From: Alloascoidea africana | Lineage: Eukaryota; Ascomycota; Alloascoideomycetes; Alloascoideales; Alloascoideaceae | Length of the DNA: 64,000 bases | Assembly (NCBI GenBank): GCA_030581615.1 | Contig: JAKTTT010000029.1 | Span: 1-64,000, forward strand | Reading direction: 5' to 3' | In this document: in pieces, positions 1-45,958 of the stretch | How the letters are laid out: each line of letters starts with the position of its first letter | Position numbering within the stretch: position 1 is the stretch's first letter | Program-made: the position numbers and the translations under genes | The notes under the pieces: generated by a model | The model's database searches: none | The model's input: only the letters and a program-made list of their open reading frames with translations | Told to the model about the DNA's origin: nothing

Positions 1-713
1 ATCTAACGTTCAACAGGAAACCTCTGGTACGTTTTTCGTGTCCAATGATTTTTTCAACTTCTACTTCTTCTGTTCCGTCCTTGTATTTGTGAAAAATTTG
101 TGCTGGTGCTTCTGTAGTTGAGTCTTTGGAACGCATAGCAGGTGTTGTTTGTATAAGTCCCAAGTCTTCGTATTGATCGATGATGAAGGAAAGGGCGCAG
201 ATATAGTTTGGTTCTAGAACGGGTTTGGTTCTGACCGTTTCTACCTGTCTCATTTCTCTCTCTGTGTCTTGAATAACTATTACACCTCAACTTCGAAAAC
301 GGACAAGAACTGAACGCACTCATCGACCCAGGTGCGTCTCACAGCTTTATCAGCCGTAACATTCTCAAGGATTTGGATGCAATAGTTATTCAAGACACAG
401 AGAGAGAAATGAGACAGGTAGAAACGGTCAGAACCAAACCCGTTCTAGAACCAAACTATATCTGCGCCCTTTCCTTCATCATCGATCAATACGAAGACTT
501 GGTTTTCCACCACACGTTTGTGCAGGTACGGGGTTGTGTTGCTGTAGCTCTTTCCCTCAATGTGTCCTCCTCTCAGTGTACTCAGTAATTGTTCCTGATA
601 AACGCCGAGCTCGTACCCTGAGTAAAGTACGATCCACTGAATGAGTCCAAAAGCGAGGTAAAACGCATAAAGCACGACCTCCATGATATACTCGCTGGAT
701 GACAGAGTCTAGT
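1..713. mobile_element. Ty3/gypsy chromovirus-like remnant
   Basis: Broken retroelement debris. On the plus strand from about 285 there is a retropepsin-like stretch with an aliphatic-IDPGASHSF active-site motif. On the minus strand below about 160 there is a chromodomain-like stretch (VEVEKIIGH) typical of chromovirus integrase tails. The two parts lie in opposite orientation and are joined by a perfect inverted repeat (160-281 and 381-502). The piece is clearly not whole and carries several breaks. It resembles the gypsy fragment near 37.5 kb, which has a related chromodomain. A minus-strand reading at 445-684 begins with a membrane-like hydrophobic stretch, and I do not recognise it. Confidence 0.7.
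160..502. repeat. Perfect inverted repeat, 122-bp arms
   Basis: The left arm is 160-281 and the right arm is 381-502, separated by a 99-nt spacer. Compared base by base, the right arm is the exact reverse complement of the left. The repeated stretch is retropepsin-region sequence of the gypsy remnant. Homology stops abruptly at both ends, and the sequences outside the two arms come from different parts of the element. Confidence 0.95.
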
Positions 714-918
714 TGTTAGGAGTTTGGTCCGTGAAAATAGTCTGTATAAAGCTTAGTTTATTAGAAATGAGAGAAAGGCTCTTCTTATATAGACAGAACT
801 ACATAGTTAATAATTGAAGTGGTTGGCAAGAGGCTGGCTTGATCTTATAGAGTGGCTGGCTTGTATACCAAGTATGGTAAGACAGTCTTCGTGTGTGATG
901 AGCCATCTCATTATAACA
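714..918 (-). mobile_element. Solo-LTR-like element, 205 bp
   Basis: Read on the minus strand it begins TGTTA and ends TAACA. It has a TATATAAG box in the middle and an AATAAA-like signal downstream, as expected for a short yeast LTR. It abuts the gag-like fragment at 919, which suggests insertion into older element debris. No clear target-site duplication is visible. A decayed relative of its distal end is found near 54310. Confidence 0.5.
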
Positions 919-1583
919 AGGTTGTGATAGTATAGACGTCTTCCATGCTAACACATCCCCTAGTAGCGTTTTTAATATGACCTTTCACCTCAGATATGAG
1001 TCCGTAGATAAACATTTCCATTCTTCCTTCCACTGACATGGCAGTTGCTGGCAAAGCAATGTCCCATTTTCTGAAGTATTCAATGTAGCCTGCGATAGTA
1101 GTTGTTTGCTTGGCTGTCCGCATTCTGCGAGTAATATACCCAATGCAATTATCAGGGTAATACCTTGCTTGGGAATTTTTCTCAAAAGGCCTCCCGCTTC
1201 GCAAATTCTGAGACGTTTTCATCGTACCAACGGTGGCATGCTGGTTCCATAAAGAATTTTGTCCATCCCATTCATTCCTTGTGGCGCTTTACATCAAACA
1301 TCATCAGGGTTGATTCCATTTGGTCTAATCATTCATTTGCTTCATGAATGTCTCGGCGGCCAGAGAAAAAGACCTTGGGTCTGAAGGGTAGGTCCGATTT
1401 TGAACTGGGTTTGTCAATAATGCTCTCCCCTGTTTTGGCTTGTGTCGCTGCCGCCACGTTTGCTCCTTCCACCAGTTGAGCAATGGGTTGTTGGTGCTGC
1501 TCGAATGACGTGCAAATGGCTGCCATCATGGTTTCCATGGACTGGAGAAACCTGTTGTTGGGGTCGCTTGTTTCCTCTGTCAT
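919..1583 (-). mobile_element. Ty3/gypsy gag-like fragment
   Basis: Minus-strand readings from 1583 down to about 919 look like a gypsy gag: a glutamine-rich start, then a later stretch with the spacing of a retrotransposon capsid. The fragment is incomplete and broken. Its downstream end meets the LTR-like element at 714-918. It lies about 400 bp upstream of a tRNA gene, a common neighbourhood for Ty3-type elements. Confidence 0.55.
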
Positions 1584-1626
1584 TTTCTTTTTGGATCATG
1601 AAAAGAACTCCCTACCAGATTTAACG

Positions 1627-1853
1627 TGTTTATTACTTTTGTTCTCCCCCCTATCTTTGGGGAATTACTTCTCCTATAAAGTTTTGTATATATTGCTTCC
1701 CACGGCCTTTCCTCAAGTATTATTTAGCCAAGATTCTTTTTAGGCCAATTGAAGTTTGTCAACTTCTCTTCAGCGCCTTCAAAGGATCATCTTTAGAGTT
1801 TCGTGCAACGAGGCAATCATTAGACAACCTTAGTGCAACGACAGTCCTTAACA
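1627..1853 (-). mobile_element. Possible LTR of the gypsy remnant
   Basis: On the minus strand this stretch begins TGTTAAGG and ends TAAACA, includes a TATATA box, and sits just upstream of the gag-like start at 1583, where a 5' LTR is expected. The boundaries rest only on the terminal TGTT/AACA motifs. It is unlike the LTR at 714-918, so two LTR families may be present. Confidence 0.4.
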
Positions 1854-1993
1854 TTAACCTGATTTCGTAAATCAAATTTCTCAACTTCATTCCTCATTTC
1901 CCATCTTCATCTTCCAAGATTTTGCCATGCTAAGCGGTGCAAGCTTATGCCAATGGGCATCAGAATTTGAACCCTATACAAAAACCAGCATTT

Positions 1994-2089
1994 GTCCCGG
2001 TGGCCGAGTGGTTAAGGCGTTGCCCTGCTATTGTTCAGTAGTTAAGGCATTGGGTTCTGCCCGCGCAGGTTCGAATCCTGTCCGTGACG
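1994..2089 (+). tRNA. tRNA-Ser(GCU) with intron
   Basis: The A box (GGCCGAGTGGTTAAGGC), a long variable arm and the B box (GGTTCGAATCC) place this as a class II serine tRNA. The anticodon loop reads CT-GCT-A, and the second half of the anticodon stem (GGCAT) follows only after an insertion of about 14 nt (about 2031-2044), so an intron is inferred as in other yeast tRNA-Ser(GCU) genes. The seven-base acceptor stem has one C/T mismatch (1997 with 2085). A T-run at 2095-2100 is a fitting Pol III terminator. It could be functional or slightly decayed. Confidence 0.8.
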
Positions 2090-2100
2090 CTATATTTTTT

Positions 2101-2701
2101 CATCTCATTCAACGGTTATTATTTCAGTGAGTGGTCCGATAATCTTTGTTGCTAATTCCTACCTTCAATGCAAGTTCCGGGTATTGAAGAACACCTATAA
2201 GACTGGACTTCATGTAGATGTTGGCTCACAGAAACACCAATCAAGAGAATCATGATTAGATCTTCAAAAGTTACATAGAACGCAAACAGTCTTAAAACGG
2301 TATTCCCCGTCAATTGTGTTTGGATGAAATATCACCATTACTCACTCCATTGTAGCCCTTCTCATACGAGGGTGTGGGTGGAAATTTTGAGGTACATGTT
2401 AACAGACTCGACAGATGTCAATAATTGTGATTCGAAAATCCCAAATTCCGATGTTTCTCAATGAAAAATTGCTATTAAGAGTATCATGGCACAAATTCTT
2501 GGCCATCGTGAAGATATAGACAAAAAGGATGAATATAAGCTGTAATGAGTGTGATAGCACAGACACACTTGTCTTCCCGTCATTGTTTACAATAAATACA
2601 AGCCCACTCTGCTCTAAAAGCCAATTTCATACGCCATCGCCAGGAAAACAAGTAGAAAGAGAAGTTCAACTTCAAAAGAGCCCAATCTATACCACAGCAG
2701 T
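2101..2701. other. Intergenic, no gene seen
   Basis: About 600 bp between the tRNA terminator and the DAP1 stop codon. It is AT-rich, with only short readings and no motif or repeat that I can assign. Confidence 0.5.
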
Positions 2702-3293
2702 TCAGGCAACTAGGTCCCCAACATATTGATACTTGTTCTTGAAGAAGGTCTCCCATTCATGTAACACCTTAAGATCTTTCTCGGTCAGATCGGCAAGGTC
2801 GTCTATAGGTTCATCTAGAGACTTTATAACAGCTAGAAACACCCAATTAAAGAAAATCTGGTTAGCACGAGAAAATTGATCACCCTTTGATTAGAGCATA
2901 TAACTTACCAGGATCAAAGCTATTCAGTGCCAATCCTCTTGAGGCATCATTCCCGGCAAAATTCGCATAAGGTCCGCCAGGTCCATAAAAGCTGCTTCCA
3001 GAAGTGACATCGTAAACGCGGCCACAAACAGCTATCAAGACTCTTGGGTCGTCAACGCCGTTGTACTTTTTTAGCTTCTCACGTGTAAAGTCACCGATTA
3101 AGATTGGTTCCTCGTCAGCAGTTGTCGATTCTTCTTTAGATTTCTTGCCTTTGGAACTGTCACTGGAAGAGGCCTCTCTGCCGGTCGTGCTGCCCGTAGA
3201 TCTGATGGATGGGAAGACAAAACGGGCGATTACAACGTAGCCGAGGATCGCAAGGAGAACAGGCTGTGCTATCTCTTGAACTGTCCAATTCAT
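2702..3293 (-). CDS. DAP1: Dap1-like cytochrome b5-fold heme protein
   Basis: Two exons (3293-2909 and 2832-2702) give about 171 residues. An N-terminal membrane segment (residues about 10-28) is followed by a Ser/Lys-rich linker and the MAPR/cytochrome b5 fold: [32 protein letters not shown] and DASRGLA. Dap1 binds heme and supports cytochrome P450 enzymes of sterol synthesis (Erg11) at the ER. The intron (2833-2908) has a GTAAGT donor, a GCTAAC branch site and a CTAG acceptor. Without the second exon the ORF would lose the conserved [12 protein letters not shown] tail. The start is the first ATG of the exon, just before the membrane segment. Confidence 0.92.
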
Positions 3294-3555
3294 TTTGAGA
3301 AACTAACCTACCTTTTTTTTTCTTCAGAAATGTATATAACGTATATAGTTGCTGCTGATGTTGTCACGCACGGATCCCTGGCAATCAAGGAGAAGAAGGA
3401 GGTACAATGTTGGGTAAAAGTGGTTGCTTTCCACGCACGTACTGGCAAGACACCAGCGAGTCTTCCATCAGGATTCTCTACTTAAACAACAGGTGCGTGG
3501 GTGTCTGCTTCCACAACATTCAGCAACTTTTGGTTACAGATAAGGTCTGCATTCC

Positions 3556-4105
3556 TCACATTCGTGCCGGTACAGGGGCACCACCATTATTCTTCATCTG
3601 ATTGAGCATTGAGGTGTTTGCCTGTTGCCTCCAGCCGCAAATCGTACACCGGAGTTGCTAATGGCGTATAGTTAAGGTCAGTTGGGTTTATTTAAATTCT
3701 TAAACAGCAGCATCCCAGCACAAAGACAGGAATAGTAAACGGCCAAGTCCAACGTACCTTTCCCCATTCCATGGGGACTAGCGGGATCCAAAAGACTGTA
3801 AAGAACTGCTTATGTTTGATTGCTTCGACAGATACGTTATGGCTATTGAACAGAAAAATCATAAAAGCAATTTCAATTTTAGAATACTGTTAGAAAGATT
3901 TCCGAGGAGTGTGTCATAAATAAGAACAACGTACCAGTGTGGGCAATAAAACCTGTTCAAGGTCATGTCCTTAACGGGACTATCAAACGACTGCGCTATT
4001 GCAGTAGGAAAATCATTGTTATCAACCTGGTCTAGTAGACCATTTCGCAACTTTGTGCTTGAAGCAAGTAGGCAACATACAACCAAGAACGAAAAAGAAA
4101 AACAT
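3556..4105 (-). CDS. Zinc-ribbon protein of the fungal zinc_ribbon_15 type
   Basis: A hidden gene of four exons (4105-4081, 3995-3935, 3842-3758, 3657-3556) that joins in frame to 90 residues. It starts MFFFFVLG, has a first CPHC knuckle (residues about 26-29), then HNVSVEAIKHKQFFTVFWIP and a second CTIC knuckle with GW behind it. Short cytosolic proteins with a hydrophobic N-terminus, a CPxC pair, a W/F-F-T-x-F-x-IP core and a second CxxC pair form a widespread fungal family of unknown function. The three introns (85, 92, 100 nt) use GTATGT, GTACGT and GTACGT donors. An alternative is an unspliced 98-residue ORF from 4155, which would lose the second knuckle, so I prefer the spliced form. 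Confidence 0.78.
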
Positions 4106-4821
4106 GTCAATGTCGCGAGCGCATAAATGTGAGAGACTGAGAAGAATGGGCACAAAGCTGTGCTTTAGTAGGGCTGTGTGGGCAGCGACGGGCTAAAGAT
4201 CATGTGCCGCCGCAACGCCCAGACACCAGCACTGGAGGAGCGAGATATGTCCTCTCCCGCGGCCCTGAGCGATGTTCTGTTTAGTGCCTGGGGCATGCTG
4301 GAACAAGTAGAGGACACGGGGCACGAGATTGGACTTGTACATGTTGAGCTGGGAATACACGCTTTGTTCTACAATTGGTAGGAGTTGGTAGAGGAGCAGT
4401 CCATCGCCTGTACAAAGCCTGTTTTCTGTTTTCTCCAGAGGGCACTCCAAGGTACCGAGGCGTGAGAAAAATGCATCAGAGAACAGCAAAAGGCTGGTTT
4501 GTTTATCCAACGGAATCAAACGCTAGCTATGGAAATGGTAAAGTCATCGCCAATTTCTGATTCTGCACGTACAAAGCAGACGGCAATAGACAACACGAAG
4601 GGAGTAAAATGTTATACAATTAACACAGGAGCACCAAATATAAGTAGAACATTGACCACCCAGACATGAAGATTAACTTAGGCTAGATAACTGTTTTATA
4701 ACTAGTAGACACATTCTAAGATAGCACTACCCCAGACATTGAAACTTACAGGTAGTATGGGTGTAGAGAGATGATATTCGAAAAGCATATGATGGACTCT
4801 TGAATCCAGAGACAGACCACG
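4106..4821. other. Divergent gap with unassigned open readings
   Basis: Region between two divergent genes, the zinc-ribbon gene (minus) and GPI3 (plus). At 4178-4560 base composition rises and both strands stay open (68 codons plus, 108 codons minus, 4193-4519). Neither protein matches a family I know. A short gene or a structured RNA is possible. The rest looks like promoter. Confidence 0.3.
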
Positions 4822-6278
4822 ATGCCTTATAACATAGCGTATGCCCGATCCAAGACAACTTCTCGTATGGTTTATGATGAAGGGAATACTAAGCGATGAA
4901 TAAAGGATGGTTTCAGACTTCTTCTTCCCTCAACCTGGAGGAGTGGAGCTCCACGTATACCAACTTTCACAAGTAAGAGGAGATCAGATTTAGCAGCTCG
5001 AGAAAGTGATAAACAGCTTTGACTAATATAAAACACTAGAAAATGATCAGTCAGGGTCATTCGGTCATAATAATAACACACACATATGGAAACAGGACTG
5101 GGGTACGAATCCTCACAAATGGCCTTAAAGTCTACTACATCCCGTTCATGGTACTCTATCGACAGAGCACATTCCCATCCGTCTTTTCGGCTTTCCCAAT
5201 ACTGAGAAACATATTTATACGAGAAGCTATAGACATTATACATGGCCACGGCAGTCTAAGCTCGCTATGCCACGAGGCGATTTTCCACGGTAGAACAATG
5301 GGTTTACGGACAGTTTTCACCGATCACTCTCTATTCGGATTTGCAGACACGGGAAGCATTTTGGGGAATAAAGCTCTACGGTTTACACTTTGTGACGTTG
5401 GCCATGTGATCTGTGTATCCCATACGTGTAAAGAGAATACTGTTCTTCGTGCCTCGCTAGACCCCGAGAACGTGAGTGTGATACCAAATGCTGTTGTCTC
5501 TGAGGACTTTACACCTGATCCTTCAAAGGCCAACAAGGAGATTACGATAATGGTTATCTCAAGGTTGTATCCAAACAAAGGTGCCGATCTTCTTACCGCC
5601 ATCATTCCACGAATATGTGCGGCTCATAAAACTGTTCGATTTGTGATCGCGGGCGATGGGCCAAAGCTAATTGACATTGAACAGATGAGAGAAAAATATA
5701 GACTGCAAGAGAGAGTGGAACTTATAGGCAGCATACGGCATGAAGAAGTCAGAGATACAATGGTGAAAGGGCATATCTATCTCCATCCCACTTTGACAGA
5801 GGCATTTGGAACGGTTCTAGTCGAAGCAGCTTCCTGTGGCTTGTTCGTAGTGACCACCAAAGTCGGTGGCATCCCGGAGGTTTTACCCTCGCATATGACT
5901 GTTTTTGCATCACCTTCGGAGGATTCACTAGTGGAAAGTACATTAAAAGCAATCTCTCTGATAGAATCCAAAAAAATTGACACTTCGACCTTCCACGACG
6001 AGGTCAAGAAGATGTATGACTGGGAGGACGTGGCAAAACGGACGGAATTCGTCTACAACAATATAGATACAGAAAAGCTTCATGAGCCGATACTAGACCG
6101 GATGATAAAGTATTATCCTGGTGGTGCCTGGGCTGGGAAGCTGTTTGTACTTTGTGTCGTTGTGGATGTGTTTCTCTACTGGGTTTTGGAATTGTTGTGG
6201 CCTAGAGATGGGATTGATAAAGTTAGAAAATGGCCAAAAAGGGGTGAAAAAGCAAAAATCGCACATTCGGACATCTAA
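4822..6278 (+). CDS. GPI3: GPI3/PIG-A, GPI-GlcNAc transferase catalytic subunit
   Basis: Transfers GlcNAc from UDP-GlcNAc to phosphatidylinositol, the first step of GPI anchor synthesis, on the cytosolic face of the ER. Three exons (4822-4838, 4906-4972, 5040-6278) give about 440 residues. The first exon is only 17 nt and encodes MPYNIA, which completes the family start before MVSDFFFPQPGGVE. The GT4-family EX7E motif (TEAFGTVLVE) lies near residue 280 and a C-terminal membrane anchor near 388-410. Introns have GTATGC and GTAAGA donors and ACTAA branch sites. The protein is close to the usual length. Confidence 0.95.
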
Positions 6279-6390
6279 TAATGTAAATTATAAGTATGGA
6301 GATGATCATGTATATAACACTGGTTTCTAAAATTTGATCCCGATATAGTGCTCTGCTGTCAAAATTCCAGAAACATGAAAAGAAAGCCTT

Positions 6391-7806
6391 TTACAACTTT
6401 TCATACTCCAGCTTGCCTTCCAGCTTCTTAGATTCCGAAACTTTCCGAACGGCCTTCATCAAATCATTCTGAACAATGTGATCTCTTCCATCTCTAATCG
6501 CAAAGAACCCAGCTTCTGTAACAACATTCCGAATGTCAGCACCGTTGAAACCATCACTCATTTTGACCACCTGCTCAAAGTCAAAATCGCCTTGTTTCTT
6601 CACATCTGTTGTATGAATCTTGAAAATCTCCAGTCTACCAGCTTCATTTGGAAGTGGAATCTCAATCTTTCTGTCCAATCGACCGGCTCTAAGCAACGCT
6701 GGATCAAGCGTATCTGGCCTATTTGTTGCCATGATAACCTTTGTCTGTCCCAAATAATCGAAACCGTCCATCTGGTTCAACAACTCCATCAGAGTACGCT
6801 GCACCTCACGATCTGAAGAAGTACCCTCGCTAAAACGTCGGCCACCAATAGCATCTATTTCATCCATGAAGATGATACAGGGCTCGTGTTCCTTGGCATA
6901 GCTAAACATTTCACGGACCAGTCTCGCAGATTCTCCAATGTATTTATCAACAATAGCTGATGCTGGAGAAAAGATGAAATTGGCGCCAATGGTTGCTGCA
7001 ACTGCTTTGGCCAAAAGAGTCTTCCCCGTTCCTGGCGGACCGTAGAGTAAGACACCCTTTGGCGGTTTGATTCCAACACGTAGGAAAAGTTCAGGGTTCT
7101 TCAAAGGTAACTCAATCACCTCTCTTAATTCACGGATTTGCTCTGTTAGACCACCAACACCTGAAAAGGTCACAGTACCTGGCTCAAAAGTCGTCATGTT
7201 GTAAACCAACGGGTCAACTTCTCTTGGCAGAATTCTCATTATTGTTAGGGTCGTCATATCCAACGCAACACGAACACCTTGCTTCAGATTCTCTCTCTTT
7301 ATAGTACTTCTACATCCAACAATGTATCTAGGTCCTGAAGATGCCTTGACAATGACTAGAACCTAAGTTAGCTTTTCCTTATCCTTAAATCCCCAAAAAA
7401 GGCATTCACTGAATGAACCTACATTTCTCTTCATCCAATTGTTTGAGAACCTCTCCAACAACTTGACCGACGCTCTGAAGAGCTTTGATATCCTTCACAG
7501 CGCATTAGTACCTCGCTCAATGGCAAACTCCAGGTCTGACAAAGCAATTGTGACAAGACTGGCATTAAGCCATATCCCGCTCAAATCACAACTCACATCC
7601 TCAGTCTTCTCAAAATCCTTGTCCAAGCTTTTAATCTTTATCCTCAGATCCTTCAACTTGGCATCCCATTGTCGATGCTCCACAAGCTTGTTCTTGAACC
7701 CTTCCAAGGCTCGTGCCCTTTCAGGATCAACAGATGGCGTGGACCCCGATGAAGTGCCCTCTTCAGCATTCAACGCACTCAAGAGTTGATCGGTTTCGTC
7801 ACTCAT
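6391..7806 (-). CDS. RPT4: 26S proteasome regulatory ATPase Rpt4
   Basis: A subunit of the six-membered ATPase ring that unfolds ubiquitylated substrates. Exons 7806-7597, 7492-7423 and 7355-6391 give 414 residues. An N-terminal coiled-coil region ([18 protein letters not shown]) leads to an OB-fold start ([16 protein letters not shown]) and then the AAA domain, with Walker A GPPGTGKT near residue 195, Walker B IIFMDEID and the arginine-finger region [18 protein letters not shown]. For the second intron I chose the acceptor TTCTAG at 7356, because the earlier AG would shift the frame. Introns are 104 and 67 nt. The gene is divergent from GCD1. Confidence 0.95.
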
Positions 7807-7901
7807 CTTCTTGTTCTTCTTTATTCGTTTCTATTTGCCGATTGAGAGAAGAAGAGTCCAGGTGCTGCGAGAAGATATCCAGTGCCACCCAAACTTCGCA
7901 T

Positions 7902-7910
7902 TTTGCCAAC
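7902..7910 (+). promoter_or_regulatory. Possible PACE-like Rpn4 site
   Basis: TTTGCCAAC lies about 96 bp upstream of the RPT4 start and differs by one base from the reverse complement of the proteasome-associated control element GGTGGCAAA. The gap 7807-8196 is otherwise an ordinary divergent promoter. This is a weak single-motif call. Confidence 0.25.
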
Positions 7911-16524: not shown

Positions 16525-16671
16525 TGTCAAGAGTTTGAAGATAAACTTATTTACTTAAAACACGCTTCTGAATGTGGAGGGCTGGGTAACTCTCCAGTAT
16601 ATCAATCCGCGGTACAGAATTAGAGGTTATCATCCAGGATAAGAGCCCATCTTCTCCTGTTTCCTGATGAA

Positions 16672-33351: not shown

Positions 33352-33864
33352 CTATGTCGTCAGGGGAGATAGAACCAAGCCCTAGTTTAATCCCCCAAGA
33401 GGAGGGTAATCGTACATAGAAGTTTGTATAGAGCTTGCTTTCCACCTACTTTTTCCTGCTCATCACTCTTCTATCCTCAACTCCCACAGCTCTTCACTCC
33501 CCTTTCCCCTTGAAACCCTTGCAAAATGAAGCTTGATTGAAAGGCATTTAACTTTGCTCAAAGCTAATAAGTTTGGCTTAGATTTAACAATCAATAGAAT
33601 AACAACTAAAGGCTTGTTTGACCATTCTTGTCTTCCGTCCATTTCACAGGTCTAAGGCCCAGTAGCCCAAGAAATGCCCGCCTATAATCTTCACCGAACG
33701 GTAAGTCATTGCTGAGCAGAGATGGTTTTCAATGTCCTCATCCTTTTTCAAATCTTCTGCTTTCCCCTCCACAGGAAATCAGCCAATGGCAAAGTTTACC
33801 ATGGAGAAGTTACAACCTCTCTAGAAAACACGATCGGTCCTCTATGGATTCTCACGCTGGAGCC

Positions 33865-34976
33865 CATGAAATATTTTTAACCGAGATTAGTAACATTGAA
33901 TTTATCTTGGATAGTGGCGCTACTTGCCATGCAGTGCAGTACGTGTCGCTGTTAAACCTTTCACATCCATAAAAGGTGTTAACGGCCTTTCGAGCTCCTC
34001 ATTGGAAGGTGATCTTAGCGTCGGAATTTTGCAGCTGAAATCGGTCAAGGTGAAGAAGGAGATAGGACGAAATATTATTTCGGCTGACCTTGTGACATCG
34101 CAAGGCATGCGCATTGTGTTGGATGATGATATGCTTTGCGTCGAGGAAAAGGCGACGGGAAAAGAACTACTGAATTGTCCAAAATTCAGTAGGTTCTGGA
34201 CAATAACGCCGAAAGATATCAACAAGGAAGTCTGTTTTACCGTGGACCATGACAATGTTCTTTAACAGTGGCGGCAGAAACTTCCCATTTGTGCTTGATA
34301 ACCTTGGCCGTGAAGAATTTTCTATGTCTGTAGGATACAATCACTGCATAGGCATTGTCAATCGGACCGATAACGTCAGCTTGAATTAGCTCACCAATTG
34401 CCCATTCTATCTTTGAAGCTTTCGAACCATGATGTTTCTGAACCAGAGAAGCGCAGGTATCGCAATTGTGATAAACTCCTTCAAGTCCTTGACGTTACAC
34501 TTCAATTCCGGGTGGTTTTGTTTGATCACAGTTGCAGGAGCATGGCCAAGAGCAAAATGTTTCGCGAGGACATCGTCGTGATCTATGGAGAAACAGACTT
34601 CTTTATTGATGTCTTTCGGGGTGATCGTCCAGAACCTACTGAATTTTGGACAATTCAGAAGTTCTTTCCCCGTCGCCTTTTCCTCGACACAAAGCATCTC
34701 ATCATCCAACATAATGCGCATGCCCTGAGATGTCAAAAGGTCGGCCGAGATAATATTTCGTCCTATCTCCTTCTTTACCTTGACCGATTTCAGCTGCAAG
34801 TTTCCAACGCTATGGTCACCTTCCAATGACGAGCTTGAAAGGCCTTTAACCCCTTTTATAGAAGTGAAAGATTTTCGAACGTTCTTTAAGATCGATGCAT
34901 CCTGTACTACATGGCAGGTAGCACCACTGTCCAAGATAAATTCAACGTTGCTAATCTCGGTGAGGTACACTTCATG
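33865..34976. repeat. Diverged inverted repeat, about 400-bp arms
   Basis: Arm 33865-34261 (plus) and arm about 34566-34976 (minus) are reverse complements at roughly 90% by eye, with a small length difference in the middle. The spacer is about 300 nt. Both arms read inward. The repeated sequence is copia protease region. Confidence 0.9.
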
Positions 34977-35424
34977 GACGTCAGCGTTAGTGTCTTTGAT
35001 CTCCTCCAAATAGTAACTTTCTTCGATGTCATTCCCAGTACCAGTAGAAGTCCCAGTAACAGGCATGTCATCATCAGCGAACCAGACCACAACATCCTTT
35101 GGAGCTTCAACGTACTGAACTTCCACTTTCTTTTGATTTTTGGGAGCAGAATTCTTGGCTTCTTCGTGCTTGTTTAAGGGACAGCGCTTGAAGCCATGAC
35201 CTGGTCGACGACATTTGTGGCAACGAACTTTTTTCCAATCAGTATAAAGAACCTGGTTATATTATACAAATTACATTATTATCAATCACGATGTCGTGAC
35301 TTTTATTGCCCTTAAACTGGCCCAAATAGCGTTTGCCAGTCTTATATAGTTCTTTACTCAGAATATATAAGAGATCTAAACTCGTACTTCTGAGTTTAGA
35401 TCTTTAGTGCTTACACTCACAACA
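33865..35424. mobile_element. Ty1/copia gag-protease remnants, head to tail inverted
   Basis: Two copies of the same copia region face each other. The minus-strand copy (about 35250 down to 34263) has a CCHC zinc knuckle (CHKCRRPGHGFKRC) followed by a protease with the FILDSGATCH active-site motif and the start of the integrase region. The plus-strand copy (about 33865-34261) repeats only the protease part. Both are broken. The stretch 35254-35424 has TG/CA ends on the minus strand, TATA-like sequence and a 12-bp hairpin (35372-35403), and is probably LTR. The age looks moderate, since the two copies differ at roughly a tenth of positions by eye. Confidence 0.8.
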
Positions 35425-36482
35425 AAGATTACTGCTTTCTTTTAACATACAATCAAATCCAATGAATTTAGAAATTGGTTTACTAAGAATGGAGGATACT
35501 TTTCGAGCAAGATTGAGATCACAGATTTTCGATCTAACCAGCAAGGTCGTGGACGAAAAGCAATTGAAGACGTAGAAGAGGAGGAGGATTTGTTTAGAAT
35601 CCCCAGAAGCTTTGTCCTGAACATTGATACTGCTTCCATGGATGAAAATTTCAAGTCCAAGCTTCGGTTTCTAGAGCATTGGGAAGGACTGATACTTTGC
35701 CTGTTATGGGAGTATCACAGAGGTTCACAAAGCAAATGGAAACCGTACCTGGACTTGCTACCTGTTGATTTTTCAAGTCTCATGTGGTGGGGCGAAGATG
35801 AGTTACCGCTGCTGGAGCCGTCTTTTGTCTTACAAAGGATCGGGAAGGAGGATGCAGAACAAATGTACGAAACTCTGATTGAGGACTCTGTGAAAGGCCT
35901 GGTCTTGAGAAGGAGCTAGGGAAGCAAAGCACAGCTCTAAACAAGTTTCATCAAATGGCAAGTCTCGTTCAAACATATAGTTTCGATGTTGAGCATGCTG
36001 ATTTGGACGAGAGAGACAGCAATTTAGAAGATGAATTGCCAGAAGATGATACCGACTCCCCCCCCCCCCTCAAGACATATCGAGAAATGGATTCTACAAA
36101 TCCATGGTCCCTCTGGCCGATTTGTTAAATGCAAATACTAAATCATGTAATGCAAATCTGGTCCATACTTTTGAGTGTTTGGTTATGAAGGCAACAAAGT
36201 CTATAAAAAGCAGAGACCAGATTCATAATACCTACGGCGACCACCCTAATGGTGAACTGTTGAGAATATATGGCTATGTGGAGTGGAATGGAAGCGAGCA
36301 TGATCTGGCAGAAATTATTCCCGAACAAATCTTTATTGCTGCAATCATCAAATTCGGACTTTCAGGTGAATTCTGTAATGAATGTGCAAACTGCCTTGCC
36401 GAAAATGTAGACAACGAGATATACATGGATTCTTACGATATATATTCCGATGAATCTGTTATTTCAGAAGGAGTTTCCCTGG

Positions 36483-37868
36483 CCAGTGAGGTGGTGGTGG
36501 GTATGAGGTAGCAGCGGCGTGATAACTTGTCAATTACAGTTAGAACCGCGTTGTGTGGGGATGTGTGGATCCCTGCCAATATCACACATAATCCATTCAA
36601 AGAGCTGTGTTCTTGGGTATTGATGGTCAGTTGGGCCATGGGTAGCAGTTTTAGCCAATCTGAATTGTCCGTGGTGTACAGCCGTAAGTACTGCTCCACC
36701 GTTTGATTCAGTCGCTCGCATTCCCCATTGCTCTGCTGGTGATGGGACACCCCTAAATGTAAATCGATTCCCATTTCTTCGCAATATTTACCAAAAACAC
36801 CACTAGTCATCTGTGGTCCTCTGTCCGATTGCACCACTTTCGGAAATCCATGGTTGCAAAAAATATAACGTGACAGGAGTTCCATCAGCCCTTCACCGTT
36901 GAGTGAGGTTGTGGTGCAATCGGACAGAGGACCACAGATGACTAGTGGTGTTTTTGGTAAATATTGCGAAGAAATGGGAATCGATTTACATTTAGGGGTG
37001 TCCCATCACCAGCAGAGCAATGGGGAATGCGAGCGACTGAATCAAACGGTGGAGCAGTACTTACGGCTGTACACCACGGACAATTCAGATTGGCTAAAAC
37101 TGCTACCCATGGCCCAACTGACCATCAATACCCAAGAACACAGCTCTTTGAATGGATTATGTGTGATATTGGCAGGGATCCACACATCCCCACACAACTG
37201 CCACTCACACCAGAACAGGATAAAACTACAACTTCTCAACTTTCTTACAAAAAACGTCTGGAAAGTGCCAAGGAGGCCATCGACAAAGCAAGCCAAAGAA
37301 ACAAAAAATACTTCGACCGTCATCACCTAGACGTAGAATTTAATGAAGGGGACGAAGTTTATGTCGCAAAAGAAGCTTTTCCAACGATTCCAGATGCCAT
37401 TGCGAAAAATTTAAGCCCAAAACTACAACCCAATTACTTCGGACCTTTTCGCATAGAACAAAAACTATCTCCCCTCAATTATGATTTGTAGCTGCCTCCC
37501 AGTATAAAAAGAAAATCTCTTTTTCATATATCGCAGCTAAAACGAAGACCACAACTGGACCCGAAGTTGCCTCTTCCACCGCCAGTTGTTATACCGTTTC
37601 ACAGTTACAAAGATGGGGCAGTAGAATTGGAAGTGTCCAAAATACTACACCACCAAAAGAAAACAAAGGGTACTCAATTCTAGTGGAATTTACGGACAAC
37701 AGTACAGAATGGGTGCGGCTGTCAGAGGTAAAACGCACAGCACCACAATTACTCCGTGACTATCAACGAGAAAAGAATATAAAGACATCCATATCCCCTT
37801 GCTTAGAAGAGTAGTTCAATAAGGTTTTCTATACTTTGATCACGATATTAGCTCCCCGCCAATATCGT
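36483..37868. mobile_element. Ty3/gypsy integrase fragment inserted in RKM4
   Basis: Broken chromovirus debris. A minus-strand part (to 36837) and a plus-strand part (from 36911) both carry the integrase core with QSDRGPQ and HHQQSNGECERLNQ. The plus-strand side continues to the integrase C-terminal region and a chromodomain (VELEVSKILHHQKK) near 37620-37740. No LTR is evident on either side. The two halves share 288 identical bases in inverted orientation, so that rearrangement is recent or kept uniform by conversion. Confidence 0.85.
36550..37198. repeat. Perfect inverted repeat, 288-bp arms
   Basis: Arm 36550-36837 is the reverse complement of arm 36911-37198, with a spacer of 73 nt. I saw no mismatch when reading the arms side by side, and the protein readings are identical. 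Both arms read outward. The content is gypsy integrase core. Confidence 0.93.
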
Positions 37869-38429
37869 TACATGTGTAGCTGCATCAGCCCAATTTGCTG
37901 CAAAGTATGTAGAGGTTCGGACAACCTCAGATTTTATGGATAAAGTGAAAAGGATAATCTACTCGAAATCCATGAAATTTCTTGAGGCGGGCAATTTAAC
38001 CCAATCAGCCAAAGAAATTTTGGTGGGTGCTGTGAACGAGAGGATTCAAGAGTACAATTCCAAGAACAAGGCGCTGAGTGGTGAGCCCACAGCTATTGAT
38101 CCACCCGTAAAAGTTACCACAAAAGAGGATGCTCGTGAATTTAGGCAATTAATGGCTCAAAATGTCATTCAGGTAGAACTCTCTTGCTTAGAGAAGGTGG
38201 ACAACTTCATTTCAAATTCCTGCACGATTAAATCTGACGATGGTGTCGGCGAACACTCTGGTTACCACTCTAAATAAATGGAGATCTTTGACATTTGCAG
38301 CCAGAATGTTCATCGAAGTATATTGATTTAGGCATAGCCTACTCCTATAGACCCAGTTCAAATAGTAGGTTATTGGGCAAGTTTGGCAAAATGTAAAAGA
38401 TAGTACCATATCAACATGAAAAAGAAAAA

Positions 38430-40085
38430 CTAGTGTTCACACAGACTGAAATATCGATAAAATGGGGGATCATCTGAATTTATCTCTTCCTCATGTAAGG
38501 TTGAACGTTCCTTCATCAATTCCAACCTAACCTCTTTTGCCTTTTCCAAAGACATTGGCCATTCAATATTCTCTAGTATTTTTTGGAACACCTCTTCTGG
38601 CAGCTGGTTTAGTCTGGATGCATCATCTCTAGTCAAATCTAAAACCCAATCCCTTTGCTGAGGAGGAACTTTATCGCTTGCAACGATCGACTTATTGTAT
38701 GGATCTGTAAGGAAAAAGCACAAAATCTTTCGATGCCCAGGTTTTGTTGGATCAGCAAGCTTAAATGGTTGAACTTGGTGTTGGTAACAATTAGGGAAGA
38801 CGACTATTCGATCTTCAATTGCCTCTATAGCGCCAATGTTATGAACAGGCACCTCACCGTTGCTCAGCCCATAAATAGCCCGTACTCCAAGATCATCATC
38901 TTGTCCATAATCTGGATCGCCGAAACCGACTCTAAAAGACAGTTTTGATTCTGTAATGTTTTCACAATCGTAATAGTATAACGCGGTCGCTATTATATCT
39001 TCGTTTATCTGGCCTTCAACGTGCCAGGCGCCTCCTTTGTACTCTGGGGACTCGGGTGTCAGATGTATGTTGGCTAATTTGACAATAACTTTGAGCTTTG
39101 AGCCTTTAACATCAAAACTCTTCATTTCTGGCAAGCCTTCCCATTGGATCATCAGAGGAAGAGGGGCTCTCTCTGTGTCCTCCAACAATTCGTCCCAAGC
39201 GTCATCATCATCAGACAAGCAATCGGAATTGATACCGTAAATACCTAGTCCATGGGGAACAAAAACGCGAAGGTACTTTCTGGAGATTGACCTTGAGAGA
39301 CAAGCATTGATTCCAGGAACACACTTGGCAAATATGTCAGCTATAGGTTGATACAGCTTTACCTGCTTTATTGGATGAAGATTATTGATGTACGATTCAA
39401 TTTTGACCTCCCCTTCTGCAGATACATCAAAGACAGCAGGAAGCCATTGAAAATTTTGAGAAATACCCCAACTCTCAATGTATTCCTTGAACTTGCTGAT
39501 TTTCTGTTTGTCAAATTTAATTGGTTGGAGAATCTTTTTCACCCCTAAATGCTCTTGAAAGTTTTCTACAGTGATAGAAGCGGTTTCATCGTCCAAATCT
39601 AAAACTGGGGTCTTGCCGTACTGGATTGGGTACAATGAAGGATGAACCAGATCGAGAACTTGGTTGTTGGAGTTTGGGTGCCAATCTTTATCCTTCTCTG
39701 GGACATTTTCTAACAACTCAAACACATACTTCTTCAACTCCTCTTTCACAGCGTTGTCGACGTTATGATCTCCATAGAATGTCCGGTCGTCTATAGCAGC
39801 TTGGAAATGATTACCTGTATCTGCTCTCAGCTTTTCATAAAACTCTAACTCGGCAAATGCATAGTCAATGATGCTCTCCCTGACATCTTGCTCCAATAGC
39901 TCTTTCTTCCATTTTGAAGAGATCTCCGGATTTTTGTATTTTACCCACCATTCGGACTTGGCTCTGAGGACCTGGCTAACGTCAACGATCTTCCATTCGT
40001 CTAGAGCTCGAGGGGGATCTCCCACAGACTCCCCCCAGGCGGGGTAGAAAGGATGCGGAAAGGGGGAGATTGTGTCGGAGACCAT
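38430..40085 (-). CDS. DUF4246 family protein
   Basis: Intronless, 551 residues. The sequence fits the fungal DUF4246 family: FDVSAEGEVKIESYINNLHP, YKGGAWHVEGQINEDIIATALYYYDCENIT, VHNIGAIEAIEDRIVVFPNCYQHQVQPF and KILCFFLTDP. The HVEGQ and CYQHQVQPF blocks with conserved His are reminiscent of 2-oxoglutarate/iron oxygenase folds, but that is inference and the function of the family is, to my knowledge, not established. The protein starts with FPHPFYPAWG close to the family start. The gene is close to the dead RKM4 3' end and looks intact. Confidence 0.85.
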   Translation of the reverse strand: MVSDTISPFPHPFYPAWGESVGDPPRALDEWKIVDVSQVLRAKSEWWVKYKNPEISSKWKKELLEQDVRESIIDYAFAELEFYEKLRADTGNHFQAAIDDRTFYGDHNVDNAVKEELKKYVFELLENVPEKDKDWHPNSNNQVLDLVHPSLYPIQYGKTPVLDLDDETASITVENFQEHLGVKKILQPIKFDKQKISKFKEYIESWGISQNFQWLPAVFDVSAEGEVKIESYINNLHPIKQVKLYQPIADIFAKCVPGINACLSRSISRKYLRVFVPHGLGIYGINSDCLSDDDDAWDELLEDTERAPLPLMIQWEGLPEMKSFDVKGSKLKVIVKLANIHLTPESPEYKGGAWHVEGQINEDIIATALYYYDCENITESKLSFRVGFGDPDYGQDDDLGVRAIYGLSNGEVPVHNIGAIEAIEDRIVVFPNCYQHQVQPFKLADPTKPGHRKILCFFLTDPYNKSIVASDKVPPQQRDWVLDLTRDDASRLNQLPEEVFQKILENIEWPMSLEKAKEVRLELMKERSTLHEEEINSDDPPFYRYFSLCEH

Positions 40086-40877
40086 TTACGGAGAAGAATA
40101 TGATCAGAGGACAAAAGCCGGAGGGCTTAAACGACTTATAACTGCCAAGGCAATTCAAGTTAAATAGATGGGATTTGTCAGGCACCGTTTTGGGGCGCAT
40201 ATCGTAGTAGGGTGAGAACGTGCGCATCCAGGTTGTAAAAGTTCATGTTTTTCACACGTTTTTAATAATGTAACTTGTATAATATAAACAGACGCATCGG
40301 CCATAATCGTATTGGCTGTGTCGGGCCGAAACGGCATAGCATTGAAGCCTTTCAAATTGGGAATCAGAGAAACAAGCAGGTAAATAAAACCAGGAAGGCA
40401 TTCCTTATTGATTAGGAATATTCAAACTTGTCCTTTTGGCCTCGAAAGGATACACGCTCTAGTTGAGTGTAGCCTAGGCTCTGAGAGGATGCAAGATTGC
40501 ATCTGCGAGACCAAGTAAACCCAAGAGGGAATGAATAATGTGGTCATTACGGAGTTTTTCATAGTATGGCGGATTGGAAATGTTAATATGTCATAATCCA
40601 GATACTACAGATAGGATCTGGACACAGTCAGGGAACCAAGTGTGAGATACCTGGAAGGGTTCAAAATCCTTTTCTTGTAGCTCTTTCATCCGGGTAACCA
40701 CTCAAGAACTCTTCTGCCGACAATCTTCCGTACACCCTTAAAACATAACTGTCATGCGCTTGCCACAGATATGCTCCTGAAAAACCCTTTCGCTTTCTCC
40801 AGAAGTTGTTGGTTGATTGAGTGGTTGAAACCGTGGGTTCTCTATACTCTTCGAGATATTTGAAGCTGTTACCAGAA
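40086..40877. other. Divergent promoter region
   Basis: About 790 bp between DUF4246 (minus) and RSM18 (plus). A minus-strand ORF (40661-40996) lies here but runs antisense through the first RSM18 exon, and I do not trust it. I see no RNA gene. Confidence 0.4.
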
Positions 40878-41555
40878 ATGCTGAGATCATTAGCTGGAAC
40901 ACCGCTGAAAACTGCCTCCCGGGCTATGGGCCCAAGGACGTTTTCTACATCCACCATATTACTACAGAAAGAGAAGAGTAGGTCGCATATCAGCAACCAT
41001 ATATCCCACGCCAGGAAATACTAACATCTTTTAATCAATTTGCAGAGATGGCTTCGTGGGAACCAAAGAAGTCTGAAAATTTGGTAATCAGAACTGCTAT
41101 TTCGCATGCGGGCGAAAGTTTCGACCAAGCTGTAAAGGCATCAAAGGAGAATCACATCGACCCATCATTTGAAAAGAATTTCTCTTGCGGCAATGTTTAT
41201 GAACCTTTTGATTTCTCATTGGCAAAGCTGAGATTGGAGAAGCGGAAGCTCAAAGAAGCTCAAGCTCAGGATGTTTTCAAGAAGAACAATACAAACCCAA
41301 AGCACCTCTATGCGGTAAGTTTGACACACTTTGGAACAAGCAACAGATGATATGGGCGTGTGCTAATAGACCTAATTCTAGCGACCTGAAGTTCTTACAC
41401 GATATATCTCGACCACAGGCCAAATCCATCACAGATCCATTACTGGCTGCAGTCCCAAGAACCAAAGGCGGCTATCCAAGGCCATCAAGCGCTGCCAAGC
41501 GATCGGATTCATTTCAAAGATTCACAAAGATGTGTCGTTCCTGCCCCAAAAATGA
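40878..41555 (+). CDS. RSM18: Mitochondrial ribosomal protein bS18m
   Basis: Small-subunit protein of the mitochondrial ribosome. Exons 40878-40977, 41046-41314 and 41382-41555 give 180 residues. An arginine-rich presequence ([26 protein letters not shown]) is followed by a linker and, in the last exon, the S18 core [22 protein letters not shown], then [18 protein letters not shown] and a C-terminal FLP. The first intron (68 nt) has a TACTAAC branch site and the second (67 nt) a GCTAAT one. The start is the first ATG in frame and gives a good import signal. Confidence 0.9.
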
Positions 41556-41796
41556 TTTTACTGTCTTTATAGAGGTCCACCGACCAGGTTGTACATAGAT
41601 AATCTTTCAGTCTGTTCCACTGTAGAACCGGAATGGGCGCTTTCATCTCCATTTCACAGGCACTTACCCGCCTGGAAGCTCTCCAGCTCTGCTGTGTGTA
41701 CATGAAAACAAAATAAAAATAGCACCCCCCAACCACCCTTAAACATCTGCTTCCTCCTTCCCCGTTCAATCTTTTCGCTCGCTACTCATCTCAAAA

Positions 41797-42975
41797 ATGA
41801 AGCTTTCACTGAGTCGAAGTCTTCAGTTTAACCTAGTGGTTCTATCGCTAGTGCTCACTGCGGTTTCCTTTCCTATCTGGCCTTCGTTTTTTCGACGCGA
41901 CTATGCTGTCGCTCAGATAACCTCTGTGGCTACTCCTGAAAAGGTTTACAGCGCACCTCAGCTGCCTAAACAAACAGCAGTTTTTGACGACTTTTACAAA
42001 AGGGACGATAGCAAGTCGTCTACGAAGGAGGAGAAGGAAGAAAAAACTTCAGCCGAAGCCTCCGCCAGCGCAACGGAAAAATCTGAAGATAAATCCAAAG
42101 ACGAGGAATCCAAGACTACAGAATCGGCTAAGGATGACAAAAAGTCCAAGTCAGAGGATTCGAAATCAGAGTCAGAGAAGAAATCAGATTCCAAATCCGA
42201 CGATTCCAAATCCGAAGATTCCAAATCAAAGAGTAAAAATGAAGATGATGATAAGAAGTCATCCGAGACTAAGAAAACTAAAGAGGCTTCCACAACTTCC
42301 ATAGACGAGGAAGAGGCCAAAAAGAGCGTTGCTTCCATAGCCTCCTCTATTACAGGTGGCATCAAACTAAAGACTCCAGCTACAACTTCGTCAACATATA
42401 TCAAAGTCGGAACGAAGGCTACTTTTGAATGGACCTATACCAGTTTGAAAACCACTCCTGACTATCTCAACATCGAAGCATACTGTTCAAGTAATAGTCA
42501 TTACTATACGATCGCAACCAGTGTTCCTGCAAAAGACATGAAATATGTTTGGGATACCAAAGACTACACCAAAAAGTCCAACGACTCTGTCAAACTCATT
42601 GTGTATGTGTCATTCTCTTGAAGTTTATTTTCTAACACAGTACTAATACCTTTTCAGGGCTTCATACACTTTGGTAATGTATGATGGCGGAGTGAAACGT
42701 TCTGCAACCGTATCCGGGGGACACATGTCAGCATATAGTCAGTTCATCTTTGGAATATATCAACCTCAGGCCTATACTCCTCTTTCAAGTAAGTGGTTTT
42801 ACCGTTTTCAGCAGATACGACTAAAGCAATTATACTAACTGTTTCATATGTGTCTTTAGAATGGTCTTGTCCTGGTTGTGAAAACGTTGCCAGCTTCATT
42901 GACCTATCAGCTCTTCGTTTCTGGTTGGCTGCTGCTGTCATTATGTCCACCACAGTTATTATGCTGGTCCGTTAG
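41797..42975 (+). CDS. Secretory membrane protein, DUF7137-like
   Basis: Exons 41797-42602, 42658-42788 and 42860-42975 give 350 residues. A signal peptide (about 1-24) is followed by a long disordered stretch (about 65-185) of Lys/Ser/Glu/Asp repeats such as KSDSKSDDSKSEDSKS. A beta-rich lumenal domain follows (about 190-305) with IKVGTKATFEWTYTSLKTTPDYLNIEAYCSS and ASYTLVMYDGG. A C-terminal WSCPGCENVASF segment and a final membrane helix close the protein. It resembles fungal type I membrane proteins with a DUF7137-type domain of unknown role, probably at the cell surface or in the secretory pathway. The TACTAAT and TACTAAC branch sites support both introns (55 and 71 nt). Confidence 0.75.
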
Positions 42976-44003
42976 AGAAATGATATATCTCCCAATTGAT
43001 CACAATGTGCTCTACTCATCCTCACTTTTTTGTTTGATTCTCCCCAAATGTTTATCTTACCTTTTTTTTTTAGCCGTTTTTACGCAAACATTTTTCGCTT
43101 TCAGGATTACTGTTTATTCCATCCCTGTCTTGTTGCATATCTTTGTTGTAGGTTAGAACCAGTAATCAATCATCTAATGCTATATTGAGGGTTGTAGAGG
43201 AAAGGATGGCATAAGTGTTGCCAATTTCATGGCTCGATGCTACGGGAGGCATGAGCTGTCACAAGGAGACCATTTGAGCCAGCATGCCTGTCTTGCAATA
43301 GGAACCTTACCATTCCGATGCTCCTATGCATGCCAGTGGTCCACTGAACCTCAAAATGGACACAGATCTGTGAGAAACAAACGAGATCCAGGTTCCCGTT
43401 TTCAAACAGACATTTCAAGGACGAGTGTTGCATAAGTCCACTATCCTTGTTACGATATCAGCAATACTGATTTCTATTTTGGATAGAAATTAATAATGGA
43501 CACATCAGGCACTGTTCCATCTTGTACCTGCCTATAAACTTAGAAATTAATCTCTTCTCTTTCAAGGGGAAAAAGGAGGAATAAAGTCCTGGAAGAGACG
43601 GGATAAGAATAGGGGATTCTTTCTTGCCAAATAACCATCACAGAGTTGCCATCGCTCTATTTGTTTAAGCAAATAAACTCTATTGCTCGTGGCCTTCTTG
43701 TTTGCTCAGGTCCATAGACCTATACTATCTACGGCTTACAGTATCCTAATTCTTCAATCGATGGTTTGCTTTAGCTCTAAATGGCAAGCTAACTGCAAAT
43801 TTCCCAACTTGCTATAGAACGTTGCACAATCTAAGCCTTAAGCCAACCGGGGAAGCAATACGATGCCTCAACATGGTACAATTATGTGCATTAAGGCCAT
43901 TTGCCCGCTCTCATTCCCAATGATGTTCAACAACAGCTCTGCTTCAATTCATGATATTTGAAGATAAATTCTGAGACTGGTAATCAGATCATCGGATCAC
44001 ACT
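42976..44003. other. Gap before the copia remnant
   Basis: About 1 kb. The first 200 bp look like a 3' flank. Readings at 43227-43435 are open on both strands but match nothing I know. The end near 44017 carries TGTTAAAATTATAA on the minus strand, close to the start of the LTR at 46148, so the last part may be decayed 3' LTR. Confidence 0.4.
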
Positions 44004-45958
44004 TTATAATTTTAACACCTTCCCTTGATCCAAATTCACCATGCCGCTGAGTCTGCTCATGTCTCCGAGCTTTACCTTCCCAAGTGCCTTCGTCAGCATG
44101 TTGGCTGCCATCTGATCCGTGCCGATGTGCTCCATCTTCACAACACCCTTCTCAATCCACTCTCGCACAAAGTGGTACTTGATGTCTATGTGTTTAGTTT
44201 TCTGGTGGTACGACGTGTGCTCTGCCAGCATGATGCACGAGTTGTTGTCCTCCAGAACTCTTAGCGGCAACTCCAGCTTCATGCCTATTCCTTCAAACAC
44301 ATTCACCGTCCAGAGAGCCTCCTTGACCGTGTCCGCCAGCGCCATGTATTCTGCCTCGGTGGACGACAGCGCCACAGTCGGCTGCTTCCGCGACTTCCAT
44401 CCCACTGGGCCGCCCGAGATCTTGGCAACATACCTGGTTGTGCTCTTCCGGTCCCTTTTGTCGCCGGCCCAGTCTGCATCTGTATATATCTCTACTCTAA
44501 GCCGGTTCTGCGTGCAATACTGGATTCCAAAGGCTGCTGTCCCCTTCAGATACCTCAGAACTCCCTTGGCTGCTGCCAGGTGTGCTGCCTTTGGGTTCTT
44601 CAGAAAGCGGCTCAGCAGATTCACTATATATGCGATGTCCATTCGGACTGTGTTGGACGCATGCAACAGTTTTCCCACTCTTCTTCTTCTTCTTCTTCTT
44701 AACATCTTTTTATATTATAGTCTTATCAGCTTTCCCACAATAGACCGGTACAGCGTGGCATCACAAGCCGGATCTGAGTCCTCATATCTGGTCAGGTCTG
44801 TGCTTGGCGATATAGGCACCGCTGTCGGATTACAGTTCTCCATTCCAAACTCTTTTGGACTTCTTTGATATAGTCCACGGCTCTCACTGTAATTCTCCCT
44901 GGCCTTTGCTCTATCTCCATCCCAAGGAACTTCTTGACCATCCCCATGTCCTTCATTTTAAACTCTTTGGATAGAACACGCTTCGTCTCCTCTATTCTCG
45001 CGCTGTTTCTCGATATAATTAGCAAATCATCTACATATAAACAAACACAGATAGACTGCTGGCTATCCAGCCTCCTAAAGTAAACTCAATACTGGGCCGG
45101 GTTTCTCTTGAAGCCATTTGTTTGAAGAACCCGGTCAATCGTGCGGTACCAGGCAAGAGGCGCTTGCTTGAGACCATATATCGACTTGAGAAGCCTGCAA
45201 ACCTTTCCTTCCTGGCCCTTTGCTTCGTATCCTTCTGGCTGGCGCATATATACCTCTTCTTCCACAGTTCCGTTCAAGAAAGCAGTTTTGATGTCCATCT
45301 GGTGGACTTGCAAAGAGAACTGCGCGGCAACCGCCAACATTATTCGCACGCTCACAAACTTGACTACTGGCGCAAAGCTTTCTTCGTAGTCTATGCCAAG
45401 TTTTTGAGTATGGCCCTGGGCCACCAGCCTTGCCTTCGCCACTCCTCCATCTTTCTCTGCAAAGACCCATTGGCTGCCCAGCATCTTTTTCCCTTCTGGC
45501 CTGGCCGCCAACACCCAAGTCTGGTTCTCCATATGCGCTGCAAATTCAGCGTTGCAAGCCTCTCGCCACTTGGCACAGTCAGCAGATCCCATGGCTTGTT
45601 GCTAGGTGCTTGTCAGCAGTAGTGTCAGAAGTCAGGACGCTCCCGCAATCCTACAAACAAGCGATGGGATCTGCTGACAGTGCCAAGTGGCGAGAGGCTT
45701 GCAACGCTGAATTTGCAGCGCATATGGAGAACCAGACTTGGGAGCTGACGGCTAGGCCAGATGGGAAGAAGATGCTGGGCAGCCAATGGGTCTTTGCAGA
45801 GAAAGATGGAGGAGTGGCGAAGGCAAGGCTGGTGGCCCAGGGCCATACTCAAAAACTTGGCATAGACTACGAAGAAAGCTTTGCGCCAGTAGTCAAGTTT
45901 GTGAGCGTTCGAATGATGTTGGCGGTTGCTACAAACAACCCATGGGGTCTGCTGAGAG
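44004..45958. mobile_element. Ty1/copia reverse transcriptase and RNase H remnants
   Basis: The main part reads on the minus strand: reverse transcriptase (about 45600-45086, with QWVFAEKDGG, VDIKTAFLNG-like and YGLKQAP motifs), a later RT part (45025-44792) and RNase H (44705-44004, with YTDADWAGD, SSTEAEYMAL and KTKHIDIKYHF). It runs into a TGTTAAAATT start of a 3' LTR at 44017. A second, plus-strand copy of the RT start lies at about 45655-45931. The element is broken in several places. A CTT microsatellite lies at about 44681-44700. Confidence 0.88.
45327..45931. repeat. Inverted repeat, about 275-bp arms
   Basis: Arm 45327-45600 (minus) and arm 45655-45931 (plus) are reverse complements at about 95% by eye. 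The spacer is about 54 nt. Both arms read outward. The content is copia reverse transcriptase start. Confidence 0.9.

Follow-up and report, generated by a model that had tools for sequence, protein, structure and literature searches.

Retroelement DNA in the yeast Alloascoidea africana has, in our judgement, probably been rearranged recurrently by fold-back or inverted template switching, and four palindromes in one stretch of its genome would be four instances of this process, left mainly as a mutational by-product. The stretch, called the window below, is the whole 64,000 nucleotides (nt) analysed, i.e. positions 1 to 64,000 of contig JAKTTT010000029.1, written C29:1-64000 among the 138 contigs of the 23.2 Mb genome. 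All four loci sit within remnants of long terminal repeat (LTR) retroelements. Their arms and the pieces attached to them are as follows.

160 to 284, minus strand: left arm of the first palindrome, protease-like retroelement sequence, antisense; 125 nt, 99.2% identity to 378-502, spacer of 93 nt.
378 to 502, plus strand: right arm of the first palindrome, sense; in the copy on contig C48 the spacer (285-377) and this arm are contiguous.
33851 to 34261, plus strand: left arm of the second, tail-to-tail palindrome, copia-type protease region, sense; 411 nt aligned, 85.9% identity to 34567-34990, spacer of 305 nt.
34567 to 34990, minus strand: right arm of the tail-to-tail palindrome; arm and spacer are contiguous with C1:4526-5500 (88%).
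36485 to 36554, minus strand: extra integrase piece, a putative further switch; directly upstream of the arm in C7, here placed after the arm.
36550 to 36837, minus strand: left arm of the integrase palindrome, antisense; 288 nt, spacer of 73 nt, which continues the arm to 36909.
36911 to 37198, plus strand: right arm of the integrase palindrome, sense; 100% identity to the left arm, runs on toward the element end.
45327 to 45606, minus strand: left arm of the reverse transcriptase palindrome; 280 nt, spacer of 43 nt.
45650 to 45929, plus strand: right arm of the reverse transcriptase palindrome; 95.7% identity.
45929 to 45960, plus strand: 32-nt direct repeat of 45651-45682, a putative further restart at the palindrome end.

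An inverted-repeat search and blastn recovered all four loci close to where the original prediction had placed them. It had described all of them as head-to-head, with the coding 5' ends toward the loop. This holds for three of the four, the second being tail-to-tail, with the coding 3' ends toward the loop, and spanning 33851-34990 instead of 33865-34976. It had also reported that comparable direct duplications and long inverted repeats in host genes are missing, and in agreement with this, blastn of the window (E up to 1e-5) gave the four palindromes only and zero direct repeats, and blastn of the window's host DNA gave no long inverted repeat. The 32-nt direct repeat in the last locus is visible in local alignment only. 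Three other inverted pairs found in the window by the inverted-repeat search are 40-44 nt long, 73-75% identical and 17-38 kb apart.

RNA folding gave a z score of -31 for 160-502 (against 100 dinucleotide-preserving shuffles) and, against 20 such shuffles each, -35 for 33991-34990 (part of the second palindrome only), -70 for 36550-37198 and -46 for 45327-45929. These values lie far beyond the shuffles and therefore none of the four palindromes is a chance match. The window palindromes are long inverted repeats capable of forming hairpins, as in small interfering RNA (siRNA) loci of the Naumovozyma castellii type, a type defined also by being transcribed and by Dicer-dependent siRNAs of 22-23 nt.

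The fragments had been assigned to four different coding regions. The region 45089-45592 matches copia reverse transcriptase (RVT_2, 2e-51), the integrase match at 36436-36885 (rve, 8e-7) is slightly below the curated cut-off, and 34410-35066 resembles a copia-type protease region weakly (Pol_BBD 9e-4, RVP 3e-3; both below cut-off). The first fragment, 160-502, owes its protease label solely to a relative on C48 (identity of 83-90% in pieces), whose own aspartyl-protease match (6e-5) is slightly below cut-off.

A genome-wide count of inverted against direct copies had been proposed as a check. The census comprised 120 rows from the whole genome (34 RVT_2, 38 RVT_1, 31 RNase H and 17 integrase). 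A pair was defined as two rows at most 2 kb apart with profile ranges overlapping by at least 20 positions, smaller overlaps being left out. One same-strand pair on C19 was excluded because its rows overlap in the genome and were taken as a frameshift of one copy. Thirteen neighbouring overlapping pairs, on 11 contigs, were inverted and two were direct (binomial p = 0.007). Inverted pairs are the commoner also when every overlapping pair is counted, where the additional ones include a pair on C58 that is hidden by row order. All 11 contigs that have an inverted neighbouring pair, and C58 too, carry at least one pair that is palindromic as DNA, and at six loci (C92, C75, C21, C10, C22 and C66) a further palindrome was found within the stretch read. 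The direct pair on C9 is old, with 69% identity, and the one on C20 is part of a triple. Protein kinases were used as a host-family control (131 rows, with 119 of 222 candidates scored) and gave, by eye, zero neighbouring overlaps of at least 20 positions in either orientation.

The loci that were read are not random, as 29 retroelement-match regions were chosen by similarity to the window loci and 12 more for a census pair. A palindrome is present in 15 of the 29 (hand count). The 43 palindromes measured have a median arm of 140 nt (range 35-450 nt), a median arm identity of 94.7% (range 74-100%) and a median spacer of 69 nt. Arm identity is at least 98% in 15 of them, so the process is not only old but also recent, and below 98% in the other 28. 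This spread bears on the possibility that the palindromes are chimeras made by whole-genome amplification or assembly, which the 99-100% identity of some arms (36550-37198 and 160-502) would fit. Divergence between arms spans 0-26%, and palindromes were not found in the sampled host DNA: three 10-kb stretches chosen regardless of content, and six loci related to RNA interference (RNAi; blastn), had zero local repeats, inverted or direct. Laboratory chimeras are therefore extremely improbable, as had been argued earlier from the differing divergence of the arms.

Structures with more than one switch were found in comparisons between copies. The locus C48:19035-20871, compared with the collinear C27:220008-221292, runs forward, reverse and forward again, and so does C7:288553-289112 compared with the integrase copy of the window. 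The window segment 36485-37434 runs reverse, reverse and forward relative to C7:286866-287531, its first piece being the segment directly upstream of the second. Microhomology at the six traced junctions is 2, 0 (with one inserted base), 2, 1, 8 and 3 bp (by eye), and the 8-bp junction is a short inverted repeat that already exists in the source. Inverted adjacent copies, short loops and microhomology, by which we recognise fold-back or template switching, were thus all found, with one of the six junctions lacking microhomology. We read the zigzag structures, the junctions and the 32-nt restart as probable marks of fold-back or opposite-strand template switching. Furthermore, 12 of 19 comparable palindromes have arms that match each other better than they match the nearest copy among the loci read (e.g. 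100 vs 86% and 99 vs 90%), and therefore each of these probably arose from a single molecule or locus.

In the mechanism that we propose, a 3' end would anneal through a few base pairs to a complementary site close by, and its extension would then retrace the same sequence over about 35-450 nt. The extended end would then be joined or switch again, which would give short-loop palindromes or forward-reverse-forward zigzags. Transcripts of any palindrome locus that is transcribed would probably be diced into siRNAs. We infer the polymerase, the stage at which it would act (complementary DNA, cDNA, or integrated copy), the transcription, the dicing and any silencing. The cDNA stage would be favoured by the occurrence of palindromes only in retroelement-bearing regions, but most of these were chosen for such content and several palindromes lack an assignment.

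A related account, which we hold possible but tentative, places the origin in reverse transcription only. Template switching or self-priming in the particle would produce palindromic cDNA, which would be integrated or captured at a break. All regions in which palindromes were found carry retroelement-related sequence and the sampled host DNA has no palindromes, although this confinement is only partly tested, in regions mostly chosen for retroelement content. The traced junctions switch within the same element, and capture of retrotransposon cDNA at yeast breaks is known (PMC11724301). Around the LTR palindromes C103:38268-38786 and C59:133842-134784, however, no target-site duplication was seen by eye, whereas the solo LTR C39:211547-211712 has CTAGC on both sides. 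Integrase insertion of palindromic cDNA units was rejected on the basis of these two LTR palindromes. Pure minus-strand snap-back predicts head-to-head products, but among the 18 palindromes whose coding strand could be assigned, 11 are head-to-head and the other 7 tail-to-tail (hand count), so snap-back was rejected as the sole source, a test that is not decisive. The missing target-site duplications and the mixed orientation together lend no support to the idea that integrase inserted minus-strand snap-back products.

Several observations weigh against fold-back or inverted template switching as the general explanation. The excess of inverted pairs is weaker when every overlapping pair is counted (16 inverted vs 5 direct), and on C21 two of the three neighbour pairs are not palindromic at the DNA level. 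The host sample is small (the three 10-kb stretches, about 24 kb of RNAi-related loci and the window), and a generic chromosomal process does not explain why host DNA is spared. In fold-back insertions at yeast double-strand breaks, microhomology primes the fold-back, which leaves a loop tens of nucleotides long and is followed by extension and then by end joining (PMC11724301). The palindromes described here would share these features, but the inversions in that source are mostly 5-34 bp, longer ones being mentioned there as previously reported, against arms of 35-450 nt in retroelement-bearing regions here.

Additionally, several palindromes in retroelement-bearing regions consist of sequence without an assignment. 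When ten peptides taken from nine other palindromes were scanned for protein families, one gave an aspartyl protease just under the cut-off, two gave weak, chance-like matches and seven had no match at all. The palindromes without assignment (C131, C24, C8:277890, C5 and C39:209811 among them) may be something other than retroelement DNA. The arms of the palindrome C131:5976-6540 (87% identity) carry an open frame of 105 amino acids (aa) with zero Pfam matches, and if this is a piece of a host gene, the process extends beyond retroelements.

Also on this side, seven of the 19 comparable palindromes have an arm that resembles a copy elsewhere at least as closely as it resembles its partner, and therefore some palindromes may join different molecules. 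The tail-to-tail palindrome of the window is among the seven, its right arm being 89.4% identical to the C1 copy and 85.9% to its partner, and its two arms may stem from more than one molecule. Such cases would fit independent nested insertions of related fragments that came to lie in opposite orientation by chance. Nested insertions predict as many direct as inverted pairs, which is not what either count gave. Moreover, both arms span one and the same segment and the loops are short, and in 12 of the 19 palindromes the arms resemble each other more than they do other copies among the loci read. We regard this origin as highly improbable.

The genome encodes both an Argonaute and Dicer-type RNase III proteins of the budding-yeast kind, for which a search had also been proposed. 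The Argonaute is a complete open reading frame of 1002 aa on C28. In the 854-aa part that was scanned, PAZ, ArgoL1 and Piwi are above the cut-off and ArgoL2 is below it. Its best match among solved structures is KpAGO, with which it aligns through the conserved segments SDVTH, RDGVS and GVPxHY, which we take to hold the catalytic residues. The best named match is from Candida arabinofermentans (41%). Two RNase III proteins (C2 and C35) have an N-terminal domain, an RNase III domain and two double-stranded RNA (dsRNA)-binding domains, and the motif NERLEFLGDS is present in both. The Dcr1 of N. castellii likewise has two dsRNA-binding domains. Both proteins score higher against RNase III/Ribonuclease 3 chains than against K. 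polysporus Dcr1, and their identity as Dcr1 or Rnt1 is ambiguous; the named fungal matches of the C2 protein are ribonuclease III, Rnt1 or nothing specific. No PF05183 match for an RNA-dependent RNA polymerase was found in the genome, in a search that had no control genome giving a signal.

A third RNase III paralogue at C6:122390-125626 has two dsRNA-binding domains and FFGRS where the others have FLGDS. Because this signature motif is lost, the paralogue is probably catalytically inactive, and it is perhaps a dsRNA-binding partner. Two further, diverged RNase III-like proteins resemble mitochondrial ribosomal protein L3. Kinase matches are similarly split in pairs (C28/C36, C33/C67 and C39/C78), and because of these pairs together with the L3-like one, the genome may have old duplicated or hybrid gene content. 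The best named match of Atg9 is from Wickerhamomyces pijperi (49%).

Since these Argonaute and RNase III proteins are encoded, transcripts of the palindromes would probably be diced into siRNAs, and we give about an even chance that at least one of the four window loci yields Dicer-dependent siRNAs. The original prediction went further and proposed a hairpin memory, in which palindromes persist by virtue of the siRNAs that their transcripts yield and that silence the matching retroelements. We consider such selection unlikely. The complete Argonaute agrees with it, as do the pair of RNase III proteins that each carry two dsRNA-binding domains, the several element families and coding regions represented and the long, nearly perfect stems. 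Three of the four window hairpins share left-arm 21-mers with copies elsewhere among the loci read (47/268, 45/391 and 10/105, i.e. 10-18%), and therefore these could target relatives. The arms of 45327-45929, on the other hand, have no other copy in a whole-genome DNA search, and 0 of 260 left-arm 21-mers occur in the other loci read; copies outside the assembly would escape this search. Arm identity is as low as 74%, and the multiple-switch structures resemble unselected products. If pairing on the transcribed strand were under selection, the G-T and A-C mismatches of a locus should differ in number. Over the 43 palindromes there are 172 G-T and 182 A-C arm mismatches, with p = 0.28 for a strand bias per locus, and strand-specific selection for RNA pairing was rejected on this null ratio.

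The earlier interpretation is thus retained for the RNAi genes, the inverted excess and the unlikelihood of a laboratory artefact, but not for the step to memory, which gains no support: no selection for pairing was found, and the abundance of palindromes and the multiple switches fit fold-back or template switching. The production of siRNAs remains compatible with the results. That the window palindromes were kept for an siRNA purpose seems quite doubtful to us. The full scheme, where an active, biased process turns captured fragments into hairpin loci that the yeast retains as an inherited store of small-RNA precursors from several families, comparable to a spacer memory but eukaryotic and built of hairpins, is very doubtful.

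Other features of the window near the four loci are the following.

523 to 925, minus strand relative to copies: LTR-like repeat adjoining the first palindrome; copies on C27, C48 and C81.
37771 to 37874, plus strand: part of the gypsy LTR, ends TTACA.
43994 to 45606, minus strand: copia remnant whose 5' end (45327-45606) forms the left arm of the last palindrome; reverse transcriptase is matched at 44843-45526, and the portion below this match is RNase H-like by eye only.
45986 to 46150, plus strand: repeat that also forms palindrome arms at C44:184661-185541.

The gypsy LTR, as judged by eye, is about 170 bp (TGTCACG...TTACA) and is followed by a probable primer-binding site, TGGGGGCCGAGCCTGG (C7:289530-289700, C103, C59 and C81). 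It also occurs in many single copies, the one at C39:211547-211712 having a clear 5-bp duplication. By eye, positions 1994-2090 of the window resemble a serine/leucine-type tRNA gene that contains an additional insert; ARAGORN, run with its bacterial setting, found no tRNA gene.

In N. castellii, palindromic loci account for the majority of siRNA reads at siRNA loci, and many of the most prolific siRNA loci are palindromic (PMC7528652). Long inverted repeats alongside an Argonaute and an RNase III-type Dicer are common to both yeasts. In N. castellii the siRNAs were seen, whereas here the loci are known from DNA alone and in another yeast; they are many, range widely in arm identity and include some multiple-switch structures. 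The maize locus Mu killer (Muk) is a partial inverted duplication of a transposon gene with a proposed read-through hairpin RNA, and it silences the family (PMC3440606). The partial inverted duplication of transposon sequence is the shared feature in that description, but Mu killer is a single locus with silencing shown, while we describe many loci from their sequence. In duplication-triplication/inverted-duplication (DUP-TRP/INV-DUP) rearrangements, replicative template switching gives a forward-reverse-forward order with short homology at both switches. The order and the short homology are the same here, but the human cases are far larger and chromosomal, whereas ours cover a few hundred bases within one element.

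In the open-licence literature, surveyed in part, no study came up that describes palindromic retroelement remnants across the genome of a yeast, and to our knowledge the origin of hairpin siRNA loci is not well settled. A yeast that has complete RNAi genes, and in which such remnants have turned palindromic at widely differing times, is natural material for asking whether mutation alone creates hairpin loci that are put to use later, or whether they are selected. The bias toward inverted duplication on retroelement DNA could be traced to a particular step of replication, repair or reverse transcription.

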